Source: a virus
IMG/VR virus record: IMGVR_UViG_3300044960_000665
Location: 1-24,158 of that record
Direction: 5' to 3' (one strand)
Length of the DNA: 24,158 bases
Shown: positions 2,249 to 24,158 of the stretch, one piece after another
How the letters are laid out: each line of letters begins with the position of its first letter
How positions within the stretch are numbered: the stretch's first letter is position 1
Program-made: the position numbers and the translations under genes
The notes under the pieces: model-generated
What the model was told of the DNA's origin: nothing
Seen by the model: only the letters and a program-made list of their open reading frames with translations
Database searches by the model: none

Positions 2249-5200
2249 TTATGTAATTAAATCACCATAAACTGTTATTTTAAGTTTAGATCCTACAAGT
2301 GACGGAAAAGTTACGGGAAATGGTAAATGACTAACACATACTCTATCAATTCTTACCACTCCCATATTCTGACCCCCATATGTGTATTTTCTAAAATTGA
2401 TTTGAATATATTGAGCTACAGGATGTGAGGAATCTTCTGCACTACCCCAGGCCAATTCTTCACAATTAGCTGAAGAATTAGTAGTGGGATTAAACAATAT
2501 ACCAGTTACTTCTCTAGGCGCATCCAATCCATATCCGTTAGGGAAATTGTCACCAACAAGCCATTCTGTTGCAACATAATGTACACCTGCTGAAAGTGTT
2601 TTGTCTTGCCAATAAGATGTATTGGGAATAGTGAATATAAATTCATCTATTATTTTTTTGTAATTAGTGGGAACATTCGTTCCCAAAATGTTTGTGTCGG
2701 TTGTAAAAATACAATCATTTATAGCTAAATTCGTTGTTGCATCTTTATTTGGTTTTGAAATTCGCAATACAGGAGCTGAGCCAGTTATAGTGGAGAGATA
2801 TATTCTATTAGTTCCACTAGCGTCCTTCATTGTAATGCTCGAACCATCTGTATCTTGCATTACAAGATTACCTAATTTTGCAGATATAGCAGATAAGCTT
2901 GATACGCTTATTTTGTCCGCTGTTACAGCACCTGCTTTTATAAGAGCGGTAATAATTGAACCAGCTGCTATAAAAGAAGAGTTTATCACAAAATCTTGTT
3001 TATCGGAGAATCTTGCAAAAAATGCTTTCTGGCTTATATCAGAAGAAGGCGATACATATGCCATAGGCGTATAACCCGACACATTACCACTCCAGAATTC
3101 TGATACTGAAATGACTTTGAATTTAGTATTTTTGTTTGGTGTATCTCCAGGCCAGACAATATATGAATCCTGTGTTAAGTTTCCTGTATTACCACTACTA
3201 ATGCTGTAGTTTGTTGTTGTACCGTCTGCGTTCTTAAATTTCAGTGTACCATTTGTCCAACTGACTGTATTATAATCAATGGCTGTAAAAGTCCCCTCGT
3301 AAATATACTTCTTAAACTCCCAATCAAAATCATCTGCACTAACTCCCCTAACCTCTTCGCTGTTATATGCCCAGGAAGACCATAAACCTTTCTTCCCAGA
3401 AGAGTTTTCAAATCTTACTTTGACAAAGTATTTATATCCGACTTTTGCATTTTTGATGATATACTGGTTTGAAATATATTGTTCATTTTCATCTTTTTTT
3501 GCTTCAACGTTTACGGTCTCACCATATACTTTTTTATCTGAGTTACTGTTTAGATAACCCTGGTCAACCTCTCCCAATGTAGGAATATTACCACCAGCGC
3601 TTGTAAGTGTTAATATAGGCGTTCCCGTAAATTGAGATGCCCTCCAATCAATGATTGATTTAACAACATCTTCAGCATGAGTCCCGCTTGGTTTATTCCA
3701 TTTAATGATTACGTTGTTGGAGGCACTTACAGTCACTGTAACACCTGTAACTTGTTGTGGTTTTTCAATTTCATCGTCTGAAACTGATTCGTCATCGTCC
3801 GACACACCTGGCTTGCCGCTTGCTATATTAGATACGATACCTTCCCCGTAAACATCATAAGGTTTTATTCTAAAATAATATGTTTTTTTCGGATCGAGGC
3901 TTTTATAGTCTGTTTCATAAAAAGTATCTGCAACATCTTCTTCTGTACTGTTAACAGTAATTACAGAAGTTATTCTTCGTTTTTTAAGTGTGCTTCCTAT
4001 GAACAATGAATTTTCGCATCTCTCTATAATAAAATGACTTATATCGTATTCTTCATCACCGTATGAATCATATGGATGTGGGAAGGATACTCTGATCCCA
4101 CTTTTAAGTTTCTTTAAAGTAGGAGTTATCTTTGTTTTGCCATCACTTAGAAACATGCCAGGTTTAGGATTTGTAACCGTCTTCTCTGCTGGTGCGGATT
4201 TCTTAGAATAGTCGTTTATACAATAAACTTTTATTTTTATTGTTCTTTGCGGTGTATTGTAGTAGGTATTGTAGTATGGATTGTTCGGATATTTTTCAAA
4301 TATCCTTGATATATCTTCCATTGAATCTTCATAATCATAAACATACTTATTGGTACTTATAGTCTCATGCCTGGCTACCATATCTCTGACAGGTGTATTT
4401 CCTATTTTTACAGTCGACGGAATGTCTGGAAAATATATTTCTACGTAATATTTAAGGCTTTCGTAACCTGTAGGTCTTATAGCATATGATAGATTCTGAT
4501 TTGATTGGCTTGTCATGTCATCCCATCTAAGCTTGAATGAACGTCCATATATCTGGTCATGCAATCCTAGTCTGTTTGCTATCTGAAGACCTGTAGGTAT
4601 AGGTAATTCATTTGAATCACCACCATATGTAAAAGTCCCATGTATTTTTATATCCGAAGATTGATTTGCGTAAGAATATGATTTTACTTCATATTCATAA
4701 TCAATCCCAGGAATAAGACCAGTTATTCTGAGCGGTTCGCCTGATGTTCTGCCCGCATAAACCCATTCTTTAGCATCAATATCTTTTATATACACTTCAG
4801 CATGAGACCAATTACTACTAGTGACAGGACGAGTTATATATATGATAGCTTGACCTAATTTAGTAGGGTCTTCTTTGATTTTTGCGGCAATGACAGGTAA
4901 TGGTGGGACTTTATGATGTTCAATTTTGTTAAGTATATCGTTTTCTTCTGTAGGCACTAAAACAGTGCCCGATTTTTCTTGGGAAGGGATTGGAGTATCA
5001 TATATGTTTTTGAATACATTGTCATCATAGGTAATTGCTACTATTTCGTAAGTATAGTCTTTTTGTCTTTTGGATATACAGGTAAATAACCTGTAATACT
5101 CATTGTTAGAATCGGTTGTACCTAATGAATATATACTATTAGATGATACATTGGTTATTGTGGTATTACATACAATATTTCTACCATTTTGGCTGATAAT

Positions 5201-7945
5201 AGTATATTCTTCTGCAGTTCCATCGTTTTTCCTGAGAAGGGCTTTTTGCCCGTATGTAACTGTAATATCTTTATCAACCGTAAAAACTGAACCAGAAACT
5301 GAAATTACCCTTCCACAGGTGGAATACCATTTTTTGGACGAACCTATTTGTATCTGATTGTTAACAGCTTCGTGTGAAAAATAAAATACGTCACCTATAT
5401 TATAGATACATGCATCTATCCCTTGTTCAAAAACAATAATATGTTTAATATATTTTGAATATTTCAATATATAGCTAAGAATTTTATTTGCATGCCATTT
5501 GTCAGTAATACCATATAGATGAATTTGCTCCATAATAAGATCGCCAACAGTGAAGTTTTCGTCTACATAGTCTCTACCAACTTGGTCTTGTTTGTATTTC
5601 CTATGTCTATTTAGGAATGATGCATAGATTCTATTTATTTTGTCTTCCGCTTTTACTTCTTCAATTCTAAAAGAACCAGCAACAATATTGGCGTTATTAA
5701 TCATTGTTACTGGCTTTCTCCATCTATCGATATACGTCAATAGTTTTTGTCCATCCCAGTAATTATATCCCCTGGTACTTTTTGCTAACAGCTCAAGGGT
5801 ATCTATAAGGGGCTGTCTGAAGTCAATGTTTATATTGACAGAAAACCTTCTTCGTGGTTTATTGTTTTCTGTTATTAAATGATCGGTATATTGTCTATCA
5901 GTAATACCATTAGTATCAGCTATATTGTATGATTGATATAAATCACCAAGTATGTTATTATCATAATCAAGATATAATCCTCTTCCATACATTTTATTTT
6001 TTTGTAAATCACAAATAATATCTAACGGATTATCACTCCATTGGCAGGAATCTTCTTGCCATTCACAAGTACCGTCAAAGATAACAGCACCTGCAATAGG
6101 CATCCAATTAGGTTCTGTACTTCCAGAAGTACCAGTTTTTATAAGTCGATAAGCATGATGACAAGGTGTTTTAATCCTTACTGGTTGCCCATTACCATCT
6201 GTAAGGCTACTATAAGAACGATTACCAATCCATGAAGGTAAACTTGAAATATTTTCACTTGTGTTTTTTATAAGCAGTCCATCAACAATGGCTGTAATAT
6301 TATCTATAGAACCGCTTATCTTTTCTGTCATTGTTAATCTTAATCCAATGAGAGCTTCGCCAGGATAGGTTAATTTGTCGTATCTTATATCTTCAATTGA
6401 TGTTATTACAATCTTATGTGCATCCTTATCTATCTTGTGCTCTGTTGCTGGAGATATTAATTTGAATTCAATTTCATATTTTGCATACGATGGTAGTCTT
6501 CCCTCGTTTCCGAAACTATCATGTGGGAAAACGTATGTTACTTGATATTCACCCTGTATAGTTTTTGGAGTTTCAGGAATTGCAAGTTTGGTAATATTAG
6601 GATTAACGTTCTTCTTGTAATAAATTGTATAGCTCTTACCTTTAACTGTTTTCCCATTATATTTTCCACTATCTGTTTCAGAAGGTTTAATTTGTTTACT
6701 AAACCTAATTTTCCCCCTATATAAGGGTATTAATGAGCCATCTTCATCACTAGTCTTGTATTCGCCATTTGCTTCAGTAAATACCGAATCTATTATATAT
6801 CTATATGTTGTTGGTTTTCCTTCTTTGTTGCCTATAAATTCAATTTCCATTCCTGGTTCTATATTATCTAAGTAATCAAAATTTTCTTGTGTACCTGTTA
6901 TTTCTTTTCCAGAAGAATCGGCAATAACAGCATAATTTGTTTTTTCTTTTACGTTAATATAATTTTCTGTACCATCTAAAACTACTTCTTGTTCTGTAAC
7001 ATCCTCTTGCCAAGAGCTATCTCCTAATTTCCTCCATCTTACCTTAATTATTACTTGATTGGGTTTATATCCTTCTTTATCATCAAATTTATAAAGACCT
7101 TCAGGAAAGGTAAAAGTAACTGCAAACGCATCAACTTTGCCATCAGTAGTAAATGTTTCACTCCACCTAGAATATGGAATTTCAATATTATCAATATCCT
7201 GATGTGCAGTAATAGTAAGTCCCATGTGAGGTATGACTTCCGCCACACTCCCATCATCTTCTTTTACTATCTGATATAATTGTTCTACTTTATCATTTAC
7301 AGAAAAATTCTTAGTGACTCTGACACCTTTAAAAGTCCATTCTGAGCCGTTTTGAGAAGCGGATAAATATCTTACAAATTCATAAGTTTCTTGCCCCTCA
7401 TCTTTAGATTGTCCATACAAAAGTAAATATCCTGGCTCTTTAGCGGATGCACTTTGAAATTTTCTGCTATTAGTACATTCAACGACCAGTGTTTTTGTCG
7501 GACTGCTTCCACTTAATGATTTAATCTTTCCCTCAACCTTTTTGACAAATTTATAAACTTTTTGTTGGTAATCTCCATGAGTAATGTAAATTTCGCAATC
7601 TTTATTAAAATTTGAATAGTATTGCCTAATAGGCAATTCATTAATCTTAATTTCCCTGCATCCTGCTATGGGACCATGCCCTAACGAGCCTAGAATGTTC
7701 GCTCTTGTTTTACCACCAAAACCACTTCTATACCAATTTATAATTGCTGGTGGAATCTGAATAGTTCCGTATGGAAGTGCAACAGGTGTACCTGGCTCAT
7801 ACGAATTTGACATTCCATAGAAACCATAAGTAGGGGAATCGAAGGGATTTTGTTTTTTAAGATGTGGTCTTAGAAGATAATTTAAGACAGTGGTTAATAA
7901 TGCTAATCCAATACCAATAAGTATTGGTATTAATGGAAAAGGCAT
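2249..7945 (-). CDS. J-like central tail tip (host-specificity) protein with FN3-like domains
   Basis: At 1898 residues this is the largest gene and sits where lambda J sits, after the L-like gene. The start at 7945 is supported by AGGAG 8 nt upstream, overlapping the stop of the L-like gene. A hydrophobic helix (residues 3-25) opens the protein, as in many J/GTA-type hub proteins. Residues about 30-1000 are the hub region; within it residues about 600-635 hold a GTSGSTEPNW...DGTCEW module. Several fibronectin-III-like domains follow (starting about residues 1018, 1115, 1272 and 1402; for example GLIPGIDYEYEVKSYSY). Near residue 1668 GSIITALIKAGAVTADKIS resembles the C-terminal helical stalk of J-type proteins. 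The last 200 residues form a likely receptor-contact tip. It probably closes the tail tube and mediates host contact. Confidence 0.9.
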   Translation of the reverse strand: MPFPLIPILIGIGLALLTTVLNYLLRPHLKKQNPFDSPTYGFYGMSNSYEPGTPVALPYGTIQIPPAIINWYRSGFGGKTRANILGSLGHGPIAGCREIKINELPIRQYYSNFNKDCEIYITHGDYQQKVYKFVKKVEGKIKSLSGSSPTKTLVVECTNSRKFQSASAKEPGYLLLYGQSKDEGQETYEFVRYLSASQNGSEWTFKGVRVTKNFSVNDKVEQLYQIVKEDDGSVAEVIPHMGLTITAHQDIDNIEIPYSRWSETFTTDGKVDAFAVTFTFPEGLYKFDDKEGYKPNQVIIKVRWRKLGDSSWQEDVTEQEVVLDGTENYINVKEKTNYAVIADSSGKEITGTQENFDYLDNIEPGMEIEFIGNKEGKPTTYRYIIDSVFTEANGEYKTSDEDGSLIPLYRGKIRFSKQIKPSETDSGKYNGKTVKGKSYTIYYKKNVNPNITKLAIPETPKTIQGEYQVTYVFPHDSFGNEGRLPSYAKYEIEFKLISPATEHKIDKDAHKIVITSIEDIRYDKLTYPGEALIGLRLTMTEKISGSIDNITAIVDGLLIKNTSENISSLPSWIGNRSYSSLTDGNGQPVRIKTPCHHAYRLIKTGTSGSTEPNWMPIAGAVIFDGTCEWQEDSCQWSDNPLDIICDLQKNKMYGRGLYLDYDNNILGDLYQSYNIADTNGITDRQYTDHLITENNKPRRRFSVNINIDFRQPLIDTLELLAKSTRGYNYWDGQKLLTYIDRWRKPVTMINNANIVAGSFRIEEVKAEDKINRIYASFLNRHRKYKQDQVGRDYVDENFTVGDLIMEQIHLYGITDKWHANKILSYILKYSKYIKHIIVFEQGIDACIYNIGDVFYFSHEAVNNQIQIGSSKKWYSTCGRVISVSGSVFTVDKDITVTYGQKALLRKNDGTAEEYTIISQNGRNIVCNTTITNVSSNSIYSLGTTDSNNEYYRLFTCISKRQKDYTYEIVAITYDDNVFKNIYDTPIPSQEKSGTVLVPTEENDILNKIEHHKVPPLPVIAAKIKEDPTKLGQAIIYITRPVTSSNWSHAEVYIKDIDAKEWVYAGRTSGEPLRITGLIPGIDYEYEVKSYSYANQSSDIKIHGTFTYGGDSNELPIPTGLQIANRLGLHDQIYGRSFKLRWDDMTSQSNQNLSYAIRPTGYESLKYYVEIYFPDIPSTVKIGNTPVRDMVARHETISTNKYVYDYEDSMEDISRIFEKYPNNPYYNTYYNTPQRTIKIKVYCINDYSKKSAPAEKTVTNPKPGMFLSDGKTKITPTLKKLKSGIRVSFPHPYDSYGDEEYDISHFIIERCENSLFIGSTLKKRRITSVITVNSTEEDVADTFYETDYKSLDPKKTYYFRIKPYDVYGEGIVSNIASGKPGVSDDDESVSDDEIEKPQQVTGVTVTVSASNNVIIKWNKPSGTHAEDVVKSIIDWRASQFTGTPILTLTSAGGNIPTLGEVDQGYLNSNSDKKVYGETVNVEAKKDENEQYISNQYIIKNAKVGYKYFVKVRFENSSGKKGLWSSWAYNSEEVRGVSADDFDWEFKKYIYEGTFTAIDYNTVSWTNGTLKFKNADGTTTNYSISSGNTGNLTQDSYIVWPGDTPNKNTKFKVISVSEFWSGNVSGYTPMAYVSPSSDISQKAFFARFSDKQDFVINSSFIAAGSIITALIKAGAVTADKISVSSLSAISAKLGNLVMQDTDGSSITMKDASGTNRIYLSTITGSAPVLRISKPNKDATTNLAINDCIFTTDTNILGTNVPTNYKKIIDEFIFTIPNTSYWQDKTLSAGVHYVATEWLVGDNFPNGYGLDAPREVTGILFNPTTNSSANCEELAWGSAEDSSHPVAQYIQINFRKYTYGGQNMGVVRIDRVCVSHLPFPVTFPSLVGSKLKITVYGDLIT

Positions 7946-22333: not shown

Positions 22334-22403
22334 TAGGGATTCTGAAAACCTGTGTCGGAATCTCTATGGTACTTGGAATTACACAGGGGAAAGGAGAAAG
22401 GAT
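22334..22403 (+). promoter_or_regulatory. H-type pseudoknot leader, copy A
   Basis: Stem 1 pairs TAGGGATTCTG (22334-22344) with CGGAATCTCTA (22356-22366), 11 bp including two wobbles. Loop 1 is AAAA. The rest of the hairpin loop, CCTGTGT (22349-22355), pairs with ACACAGG (22381-22387), giving stem 2 of 7 bp that abuts stem 1 directly. Loop 3 is 14 nt with the core ACTTGGAAT. AAGGAG (22391-22396) follows 3 nt later, then the ATG at 22404. The geometry is sterically reasonable and would place stem 2 against the ribosome site. Confidence 0.75.
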
Positions 22404-22994
22404 ATGAAATTGTACACAATTATTGATGGGGAAGTTTACGAGGGTGCAACTGTTACGCAGTTCTCCCTTAAAAACGCTGGTATTGTAATACCAGCGATTG
22501 TTATCGGAGAAGAAGGTCATGGCAGGGCGCTGGGCGTCCTGCCAGTAAAATTCATCGAAGGAAGCACTCCTGAAAAGGAGTGGAGTGAGAAGGGGGAAAC
22601 CCTCCTCCACTCCGCAATCATTGGGGCAACAAGGGCTGGAAAGCCCAAGTTGCTCCAAACCATAGAAGGCGCAGATGAAAAATGCATCTGCGTCTTCAGG
22701 ACGTCAATCGGTTTCAGGGGTGGAAATTTCCACTCCGGAGACTTGATTGGCGAAGGAATCTTCGCCGCATTCCCGGGTGAAATAATCACCCGGGGAATTA
22801 TAGCCCAAGGCGATGCGGGGAGGATGGGCAGCGGCGAGCAAATCGTCGCTGTCATCCCACCAAAGAGTGTTTTTCGTACAGCCTACACGGGTAGGCTGTA
22901 TGGGAAAGCCCCATCCCACTATTATATGTGGGATGGTAAAATCCTGACTGGTGGCGTCACCTGGGATGAAAGGGACGCCATCAAAATTTTCTAA
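22404..22994 (+). CDS. Unknown 196-residue protein encoded by a hairpin-tiled ORF
   Basis: ATG 22404 has AAGGAG 7 nt upstream, directly after the pseudoknot leader, and a perfect terminator follows the stop. The protein is glycine- and isoleucine-rich, apparently soluble and beta-rich (AGIVIPAIVIGEEGHGRALG, GEGIFAAFPGEIITRGIIAQ, HYYMWDGKILTGGVTWDER). No signal peptide, membrane helix or motif is recognised, and I cannot assign a family. Base composition is richer in G+C than the phage genes, suggesting separate origin. The coding sequence carries about 13 consecutive stem-loops (separate entry), so the RNA itself may be functional. A start on an SD and 196 open codons argue that it is also translated. 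Confidence 0.7.
   Translation: MKLYTIIDGEVYEGATVTQFSLKNAGIVIPAIVIGEEGHGRALGVLPVKFIEGSTPEKEWSEKGETLLHSAIIGATRAGKPKLLQTIEGADEKCICVFRTSIGFRGGNFHSGDLIGEGIFAAFPGEIITRGIIAQGDAGRMGSGEQIVAVIPPKSVFRTAYTGRLYGKAPSHYYMWDGKILTGGVTWDERDAIKIF
22441..22980 (+). other. Array of about 13 consecutive hairpins inside the ORF
   Basis: Stems by position: 22448-22462 (5 bp plus outer 4), 22475-22496 (10), 22520-22544 (10, one G-U), 22565-22582 (7, GAAA loop), 22582-22613 (6), 22621-22658 (10 with one G-U, then 5 with GGAA loop), 22665-22697 (13, one G-U), 22717-22736 (10 as DNA, 8 as RNA; one G-U), 22749-22766 (7), 22770-22797 (9 plus 2), 22822-22857 (9 plus 6, G-U pairs), 22877-22900 (10), 22911-22936 (9), 22952-22980 (7). 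Imperfect pairs are all G-U on the plus-strand RNA, never A-C, so selection appears to act on the mRNA. Confidence 0.8.
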
Positions 22995-22997
22995 TTC

Positions 22998-23040
22998 AAC
23001 ACCCTTCCAGGGATCAATTCCCTGGAAGGGTGTTTTTTTT
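22998..23040 (+). terminator. Rho-independent terminator of the hairpin-tiled gene
   Basis: A perfect 15-bp stem (ACACCCTTCCAGGGA, 22999-23013, with its complement 23019-23033), a 5-nt loop, and a run of eight T (23033-23040). The adjacent A-T at 22998/23034 can extend it. It lies just after the stop codon and only 30 nt before the second pseudoknot leader. Confidence 0.95.
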
Positions 23041-23069
23041 CACGAAAAGGGGGAGTGTATCCTCCTGTG

Positions 23070-23137
23070 TAGGGATTCTGAAACCTGTGCCAGAATCCTT
23101 ACTACACTTGAAATCGCACAGGAAAGGAGGAAAAAAA
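23070..23137 (+). promoter_or_regulatory. H-type pseudoknot leader, copy B
   Basis: Stem 1 pairs TAGGGATTCTG (23070-23080, identical to copy A) with CAGAATCCTTA (23091-23101), 11 bp. Loop 1 is AAA. CCTGTGC (23084-23090) pairs with GCACAGG (23116-23122), 7 bp. Loop 3 is again 14 nt with ACTTGAAAT. AAAGGAGG (23123-23130) follows at once and the ATG is 7 nt later. Compared with copy A, the last stem-2 pair changed from U-A to C-G, and three stem-1 pairs changed between Watson-Crick and wobble. Confidence 0.78.
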
Positions 23138-23821
23138 ATGAAGGTAAGAGTGGAATACAAACTGTCAGAGAAGGGGCAAAGGGATGCCATACGGAAAGGA
23201 CTCGACGGGAGACGATACCAGAAAACGGTACTGGACGATCCCCAAAACACGATGCTCGAATCGAAAATAGGGGAAATGGAGACCGATGGCGTAATGCGCT
23301 TCCACCCGCAGGAGGAAGTATGGATTGATGTGGAATATGGACACGGGAACAGGTATATGCAATCAAACCCCGTCGAGTGTGAAAAATGGGGGGAGATTAT
23401 CAAAGACATCATCCACACATACGGGAAGGAGGTATGCTTCAGGGTGTCCTATCGTGAAGCGTTCCTCGACTCGCCGATCATCACCATTGCCGATCTCCAA
23501 CGGTATGAAGTTGAGTTCTTCGAGAGTGAAGAAAAGGCCAAAAAGAAAATCGAAGAACTTCGCTCTACTGTAGAAAATATATGCCAAGAAATTGAAAAGG
23601 AAAAACAGGAAAAAGAAAAGAAATTAGCGGAGGCCAAAACATTATTGTCAGGCGTCTTGGCATCTTATGAGGAGAAAATCCAAGAGCTAAGAACAGAAAT
23701 CGAGCAAAACTCAAGAGAAAAGATATACGATGAAATTCTGAGAAAAGGAGGGTTCACCGTAACCGAAAAAAGGAAAGTAAGGTACATCGTGAAGAAGGAG
23801 GAAGAGGAAGAAGAAAACTGA
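23138..23821 (+). CDS. Unknown coiled-coil protein with acidic tail
   Basis: This 227-residue protein starts at ATG 23138 with AAAGGAGG 7 nt upstream. A longer open frame to 23030 runs through the terminator U tract and the leader, so it is not used. Residues 1-120 are mixed alpha/beta (WIDVEYGHGNRY, EVCFRVSYREAF); residues about 125-205 are a long charged coiled coil (EEKAKKKIEEL, EIEKEKQEKEKK); the end is basic then acidic (RKVRYIVKKEEEEEEN). No catalytic motif is seen. It shares the pseudoknot leader with the upstream gene but shows no protein similarity to it and lacks the dense hairpins. A nucleic-acid-binding or scaffold role is guesswork. Confidence 0.75.
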   Translation: MKVRVEYKLSEKGQRDAIRKGLDGRRYQKTVLDDPQNTMLESKIGEMETDGVMRFHPQEEVWIDVEYGHGNRYMQSNPVECEKWGEIIKDIIHTYGKEVCFRVSYREAFLDSPIITIADLQRYEVEFFESEEKAKKKIEELRSTVENICQEIEKEKQEKEKKLAEAKTLLSGVLASYEEKIQELRTEIEQNSREKIYDEILRKGGFTVTEKRKVRYIVKKEEEEEEN

Positions 23822-23840: not shown

Positions 23841-23879
23841 AAAGGAAGCAGGGCTCAACGCTCTGCTTCCTTTTTTTTT
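23841..23879 (+). terminator. Rho-independent terminator after the coiled-coil gene
   Basis: An 11-bp perfect stem (AAAGGAAGCAG / CTGCTTCCTTT, arms 23841-23851 and 23863-23873), an 11-nt loop and nine T residues, 19 nt after the stop codon. Confidence 0.9.
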
Positions 23880-23917
23880 ATATCCTGAATCTGAGCATAT
23901 TCTGGCATTTTCTACCA

Positions 23918-24158
23918 ATGCATTTATCGGGGGGAGATTATCTGGACGATCTTGAAGCGCTCAGGGAAAAAGGTTTAAGGTATCAGGCATTGAGAGGAGG
24001 CAGGTTAAAGGTATAGAGGCGATAGTAATAGACCTTCAGAGGGAGGGTAATGTATATATCTGTAGTGGATGTGGCAAGGAGGTTAAAAGCAAGCACAGTT
24101 CAAGGGTACAGGAAGTCAGGCATCTTCATCTATGGAGATATTTAACGATATTGAGATT
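23918..24158 (+). pseudogene. ISL3-type transposase N-terminus, frame disrupted, runs off the right edge
   Basis: The plus-strand frame from 23956 to the edge reads KVSGIERRQVK, GIEAIVIDLQREGNVYICSG, CGKEVKSKHSSRVQEVRHL. This is the N-terminal zinc-binding region of ISL3-family transposases (the first CxxC is visible). No start codon exists in that frame before the conserved part. A start at ATG 23918 gives LDDLEALREKGLRY in another frame that ends at a TAG at about 24014; the two frames join at about 23984 if one base was lost. So the element is probably inactivated, unless the sequence has an error. No terminal inverted repeat could be identified. Confidence 0.6.

Follow-up and report, generated by a model that had tools for sequence, protein, structure and literature searches.

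A repeated pseudoknot leader before two unrelated phage accessory genes as a candidate translational operator

The locus and its two accessory genes

The window, i.e. the whole stretch of 24,158 nucleotides that was analysed, carries a tailed-phage structural module (terminase, portal, capsid/protease, tube and tail genes) on the minus strand in its left and middle parts. The closest relative found was G011, a 42 kb IMG/VR record whose structural module is syntenic with a protein identity of 47–74%, followed at a greater distance by the Microcystis phage Mae-JY22 (capsid, 35%). The phage lineage concerned is barely sampled. Near the left end of the window, positions 432–674 contain a direct repeat of 117 nt (85% identical, spacing 126), and an inverted repeat of 28 nt (79% complementary; 831–858 and 24005–24032) lies near both ends of the record, which could be due to chance or be an old IS remnant. 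At the contig end (24058–24156, plus strand; Pfam PF14690, E 7e-6), a zinc ribbon from an ISL3-type transposase persists as a remnant, and the end of the record may accordingly be IS or host DNA.

On the plus strand, two genes, here called gene 1 and gene 2, each stand behind a structured leader and are each followed by a terminator or a likely terminator (Table 1). Relatives of the gene 1 product were found in the Pseudanabaena phages Pam2 and PA-SR01 (44%) and in at least eight IMG/VR contigs; the set collected comprised nine IMG/VR loci. The predicted all-beta structure of the gene 1 product (pLDDT 90) had no significant match among solved structures and weakly resembled an uncharacterised rudivirus protein (E 1.6e-4, TM ∼0.46). 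Gene 2 had no relatives in the collections searched, and its single-sequence fold was poor (pLDDT 55). Neither product was recognizable as a nucleic-acid-binding, ssDNA-binding, metabolic, transport or resistance protein. The GC3 value is 53% in both genes versus 27% in the capsid gene, and in G011 neither gene is present at the equivalent position, which is occupied by other small ORFs. The region 22404–23821 was thus probably acquired, and we infer that the two genes form an acquired accessory (‘moron’-like) block of separate units. A consensus promoter scan gave no convincing promoter near either leader copy.

Table 1. Coordinates of the leaders, genes and terminators in the window, and of a different repeated leader in the contig L020.
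Feature	Position	Strand	Details
Window (IMG/VR virus record IMGVR_UViG_3300044960_000665)	1–24,158		
Pseudoknot leader, copy 1	22334..22387	+	sequence, pair-by-pair check
Copy 1 stem 1	22334–22344/22356–22366		TAGGGATTCTG/CGGAATCTCTA; 11 bp, two G-U
Copy 1 loop 1	22345–22348		AAAA
Copy 1 stem 2	22349–22355/22381–22387		CCTGTGT/ACACAGG; no junction base
Copy 1 loop 3	22367–22380		TGGTACTTGGAATT
Copy 1 Shine-Dalgarno	22390..22396	+	AAAGGAG; 7 nt 5′ of ATG 22404; read from sequence
Gene 1	22404..22994	+	196 aa, all-beta, phage accessory family
Intrinsic terminator of gene 1	22998..23040	+	16-bp stem, T run
Hairpin of copy 2 only	23048..23066	+	AGGGGGA-GTGTA-TCCTCCT; computed fold energies
Pseudoknot leader, copy 2	23070..23122	+	sequence, pair-by-pair check
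Copy 2 stem 1	23070–23080/23091–23101		TAGGGATTCTG/CAGAATCCTTA; one G-U
Copy 2 loop 1	23081–23083		AAA
Copy 2 stem 2	23084–23090/23116–23122		CCTGTGC/GCACAGG
Copy 2 loop 3	23102–23115		CTACACTTGAAATC
Copy 2 Shine-Dalgarno	23123..23130	+	AAAGGAGG; 7 nt 5′ of ATG 23138; read from sequence
Gene 2	23138..23821	+	227 aa, short N-terminal domain and long coiled coil
Likely terminator of gene 2	23847..23880	+	GGAAGCAGGGC...GCTCTGCTTCC, then T run; read from sequence, absent from consensus terminator scan
L020 leader copies	1869–1937, 2186–2259, 2570–2640, 3438–3525		last one precedes gene 1 relative

Two leaders with one pseudoknot design

Both leaders can be folded as H-type pseudoknots with a stem 1 of 11 bp, a loop 1 of 3–4 nt, a stem 2 of 7 bp, a loop 3 of 14 nt and no nucleotide at the junction, and pair-by-pair inspection upheld this fold as it had been described in the initial annotation. 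The strong Shine-Dalgarno (SD) sequence AAAGGAG(G) is unpaired and lies outside the knot in both leaders. Stem 2 is separated from AAAGGAG by 2 nt in copy 1 and by 0 nt in copy 2, or by 3 and 1 nt when AAGGAG is counted, in agreement with the 1–3 nt annotated before. The spacing from stem 2 to the ATG, which is the whole interval between knot and start codon, is only 16 nt in copy 1 and 15 nt in copy 2 and is purine-rich, the SD-to-ATG distance being constant. The computed stability of the stem 1 hairpin alone is about −18 kcal/mol and that of the stem 2 duplex −9 to −11 kcal/mol. The two stems probably stack coaxially into a rigid, quasi-continuous rod of 18 bp; both folds can form, and presumably they do so inside the cell as well.

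Copy 2 is preceded by a hairpin whose TCCTCCT strand pairs either with the upstream AGGGGGA or with AGGAGGA of the gene 2 SD (23125–23131), at −29.8 versus −29.5 kcal/mol, making an extra on/off switch possible. This hairpin was set aside as part of a common design because copy 1 has no counterpart. A second CCTGTG is located just 5′ of copy 2 stem 1 (23064–23069) and could rival the loop strand for CACAGG.

Comparison of the two copies revealed 11 substitutions and one 1-nt indel within the knot, the latter in loop 1, and a further indel of 2 nt after stem 2. The 18 pairs remain standard in both copies; of these, 14 are unchanged, three exhibit a one-sided exchange between Watson–Crick and G-U pairing, and one differs on both sides (U-A/C-G). 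The earlier count of one stem 2 pair as U-A versus C-G, three G-U swaps in stem 1 and no broken pair was thereby reproduced, whereas the ‘compensatory change’ read into it comes down to the single two-sided pair. The probability that 11 randomly placed substitutions leave all pairs intact is about 0.02 with the observed transition bias (10:1) and 0.001 without it, and a column-shuffle covariation control (258/500) has no power at two sequences. Covariation cannot be proven from two copies on one phage fragment. In loop 3, the four nucleotides on the 5′ side all vary and the core ACTTGRAAT is fixed at eight of its nine positions.

Local alignment of the two leaders scored 57, whereas none of 500 shuffled pairs exceeded 26, their maximum. 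The first base of stem 1 marks the onset of the similarity, which extends up to the start codon or barely beyond it; the two units are unrelated in their upstream flanks and in their coding sequences, as the initial annotation had stated for the genes, and the common part consists of knot, SD and start codon. A scan for this architecture (stem 1 of at least 8 bp, stem 2 of at least 6 bp, loop 1 of 1–6 nt, junction of 0–1 nt, loop 3 of 6–23 nt, at most 6 nt from an SD with start codon) found exactly two matches on both strands of the window, namely the two leaders, no match in 20 dinucleotide shuffles of the window, and no match in the non-coding parts of 26 related loci. We therefore hold with high confidence that the knot is real, mainly on account of its double occurrence at two ribosome binding sites (RBS) and only secondarily of covariation.

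Three of the four changed pairs swap between Watson–Crick and G-U, an exchange acceptable in RNA but not in a DNA dyad, and the leaders are thus taken to be an RNA element. With a covariance model, the reverse strand of the same site scored 19 bits versus 75 bits. Because of the G-U swaps, and because the two leaders resemble each other only from the first stem 1 base up to the start codon, a shared promoter or DNA element was rejected. Likewise, the 1-nt and 2-nt indels are incompatible with a conserved reading frame or peptide, and a −1 frameshift stimulator was dismissed on positional grounds, as the element precedes the start codon instead of lying within both reading frames.

Searches for related leaders

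None of the 4227 families of Rfam 15, which include preQ1-I, SAM-II, fluoride, glnA and Downstream-peptide, matched the window at its gathering score, bearing out the earlier failure to place the leader in a riboswitch class. Scores below this threshold amounted to noise; the best riboswitch among them was preQ1-II (RF01054), whose 18.6 bits (E 8.2), obtained for copy 2 only, fall short of the cut-off of 47. Two exact motif patterns found no leader homologue in IMG/VR, and the seven matches of a relaxed pattern in the same collection all lacked stem 1. One contig, L105, carries CCTGTGT/ACACAGG over an SD; since the sequence that would form stem 1 is part of a different hairpin, it was taken as a chance match. 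One pattern over the GTDB species genomes gave two matches that lacked the knot and were judged to lie within coding sequence. These pattern scans require exact bases, and absence of homologues from them is not strong evidence. A covariance model of stem 1 and sequence found no homologue in the related loci and full related records, nor in 398 genomes from the phylum of one arbitrarily chosen Streptococcaceae genome, and blastn against named phages and plasmids yielded nothing beyond short matches attributable to chance. This knot does not precede any of the gene 1 relatives in other phages. Taken together, no leader homologue was found outside this record in IMG/VR, the GTDB species genomes, named phages, plasmids and the related phages searched. 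The initial annotation had named a lack of further homologues with covarying pairs as grounds for refutation, and none turned up in these collections; given how sparsely the phage lineage is sampled, this limits its claim and does not overturn it.

A different repeated leader was observed in L020 (IMGVR_UViG_3300010286_000199), where four copies of about 70–88 nt precede four ORFs (Table 1). Its layout is GCAGGGCTAGG - hairpin - hairpin - TWMCGCTCAACCTG, and both internal hairpins stay paired in all four copies despite changes on both sides. The CCTGC of its closing stem GCAGG/CCTGC has a potential alternative partner in a GCAGG-like segment that immediately precedes the SD. This leader, which had no Rfam match, is riboswitch-like and hints that phages with the gene 1 family use shared RNA leaders repeatedly. 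The same contig contains several copies of GGGTTTATCAG...AATTCATAGG before ORFs between 5519 and 6694, including a tyrosine-recombinase-like ORF at 5962. Among other contigs with a gene 1 relative, the leader of that relative in L003 (7680–7713) contains AGTGCC...GGCACT, which would enclose and mask the SD, and L016 carries an Rfam type II hammerhead ribozyme at 4873–4936 (51 bits).

A possible shared translational operator and its alternatives

Our preferred interpretation, held tentatively and short of even confidence, is that each copy acts in cis as a 5′-leader RNA through which a trans-acting protein places the two accessory genes under common translational control. The knot RNA would be the selected unit. 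Translational control is inferred because the knot abuts the expected upstream edge of the 30S footprint while the SD itself is free, and a shared leader is a natural route to co-regulation because a terminator separates the two units, which would be transcribed separately. A phage or host protein might recognize the knot via the conserved AAA of loop 1 and ACUUGRAAU of loop 3, this being the least certain step; once bound, it would overlap the 30S site and block 30S binding, so that both genes would be turned down together. The fixed ACUUGRAAU core beside varying 5′ nucleotides suggests, at the sequence level, a loop 3 that is recognized or docked. Several observations speak against an operator: there are only two copies on one phage fragment, with no homologue in the collections searched and hence no covariation from an independent source, the knot alone need not repress as the SD is unpaired, the gene 1 relatives in other phages lack the leader, and neither product is recognizable as RNA-binding. 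An SD outside the aptamer is no bar to regulation, since one preQ1 type still regulates in this manner (PMC11625349). Of the initial proposal of translational control by a ligand or a protein, resembling that of T4 gene 32, the fold, the duplication and the proximity to the RBS stood, whereas control itself is plausible only, and a stabiliser or insulator would fit almost as well. Probably, the leader serves to control translation and is confined to a little-sampled phage lineage.

Several known leaders resemble the present ones in part. Like the preQ1-I, preQ1-II and SAM-II riboswitches, which act on translation initiation, they form a single compact pseudoknot at the RBS, but unlike those classes they have no Rfam match, and their stem 1 is twice as long as that of preQ1-I. 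The rpsO (S15) operator likewise places a pseudoknot at the RBS and controls translation, in that case of a cellular ribosomal-protein gene, its knot overlapping the RBS and trapping the 30S subunit. A structure next to a strong SD is also shared with the 5′ stabilisers of aprE, phage SP82 and ompA, which are 5′-proximal; that of ompA lacks a pseudoknot. The aprE and SP82 elements differ in being a simple stem-loop or a polypurine element, again without a pseudoknot (PMC7509114), and the knot of the preQ1 and SAM-II classes usually incorporates SD nucleotides (PMC11625349), whereas here they lie outside. The proposed logic is that of the gene 32 operator of T4, RB69 and T2, an H-type pseudoknot with coaxial stems that lies in the 5′ leader of the phage gene it controls and to which gp32 of T4 binds, thereby repressing translation (PMC535899, PMC3014915). 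Both copies here share the property of a pseudoknot in the 5′ leader of a phage gene. However, the T4 knot comprises about 28 nt, starts 67 nt 5′ of the AUG and is followed by an unstructured UUAAA-rich stretch of more than 40 nt (PMC535899, PMC3014915), while the present leaders measure 53–54 nt, have stems of 11 and 7 bp, stand directly at the SD and serve two genes. No UUAAA-rich tract of that length lies between knot and AUG here, and no gene 32-type ssDNA-binding domain was found in gene 1 or gene 2, the gene 1 model matching no solved fold.

A close and only slightly less probable alternative is that the knot, presumed to be at or near the 5′ end of the transcript, serves as a constitutive mRNA stabiliser or RBS insulator that blocks decay dependent on the 5′ end and keeps the SD open by preventing the coding sequence from folding onto it, for durable high expression without any trans factor. 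The very stable fold adjoining a strong SD at a 7-nt spacing is consistent with this, as are the two self-contained units of atypical GC, which look like accessory cassettes made for autonomous expression, and the A-rich 3′ side of loop 3, which could dock in stem 1 and steady the knot without a ligand. Precedent exists in Bacillus, where leaders with a 5′ stem-loop and an RBS stabilise aprE mRNA; moreover, the mRNAs of aprE and of phage SP82 have shorter half-lives when the RBS is mutated (PMC7509114). On the other hand, a plain hairpin would suffice for this purpose, a knot with a conserved ACUUGRAAU exceeds it, and the consensus scan found no good promoter adjoining either copy. We lean towards recognition, by a small margin, because a stabiliser needs neither conservation of loop 3 nor the same knot at two genes. 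A ligand riboswitch of a new class, in which the pseudoknot would be the aptamer and the neighbouring SD the output, appears unlikely. Compact RBS-proximal H-type pseudoknots are indeed a common riboswitch form (PMC11625349), and the loop residues are better conserved than their flanks, but the SD is unpaired in the knot, the two strong uninterrupted helices make the fold stable without a ligand, and the genes are not recognizable as metabolic, transport or resistance genes. Furthermore, the phylogenetic spread of the known classes is missing, with no homologue outside the record in the collections searched, the best Rfam score (preQ1-II) is far below its cut-off, and positive evidence for a ligand is nil.

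The remaining explanations are considerably weaker. The quasi-continuous 18-bp helix before two phage genes could be the substrate of an RNase III-type enzyme or a structured intergenic spacer; this is improbable, as a cut would part leader from gene within nucleotides of the SD, and copy 2 lies directly 3′ of a terminator with no obviously joined upstream cistron. Just as improbable is a DNA operator, i.e. two overlapping dyads under a repressor with no RNA element. Both stems are inverted repeats in DNA too, but the Watson–Crick/G-U changes in three of the four altered pairs break dyad symmetry and not RNA pairing, and the dyads, placed between the presumed start site and the RBS, are interleaved in the manner of a pseudoknot. 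Least credible of all is a recent duplication of a leader whose knot has no function and whose pairs survive by common descent and chance. There are two copies only, and chance survival of all pairs would occur in about 2% of cases under the transition bias; against this, the knot is absent from shuffled sequences, the loops change faster than the stems, and the flanks have fully diverged while the knot has not.

Returning to the shared operator, a broader form of it, in which an 11 + 7 bp H-type pseudoknot at the SD constitutes a new class of translational operator that places several unrelated accessory cassettes under one RNA-binding repressor or ligand, is more doubtful. Gene 1 relatives elsewhere may likewise use different shared RNA leaders, as in L020. 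A 2010 review regarded the T4-type gene 32 knot as perhaps the sole viral pseudoknot that autoregulates translation (PMC3014915). The leader would offer a small and well-defined RNA of 54 nt with which to find the protein or ligand that reads it. If the interpretation is correct, the twin leaders would represent a second, unrelated pseudoknot design serving two genes, and thus an RNA-level regulon for phage cargo genes carried as separate gene–terminator cassettes, which would show that phages can connect their cargo genes to one another through RNA.
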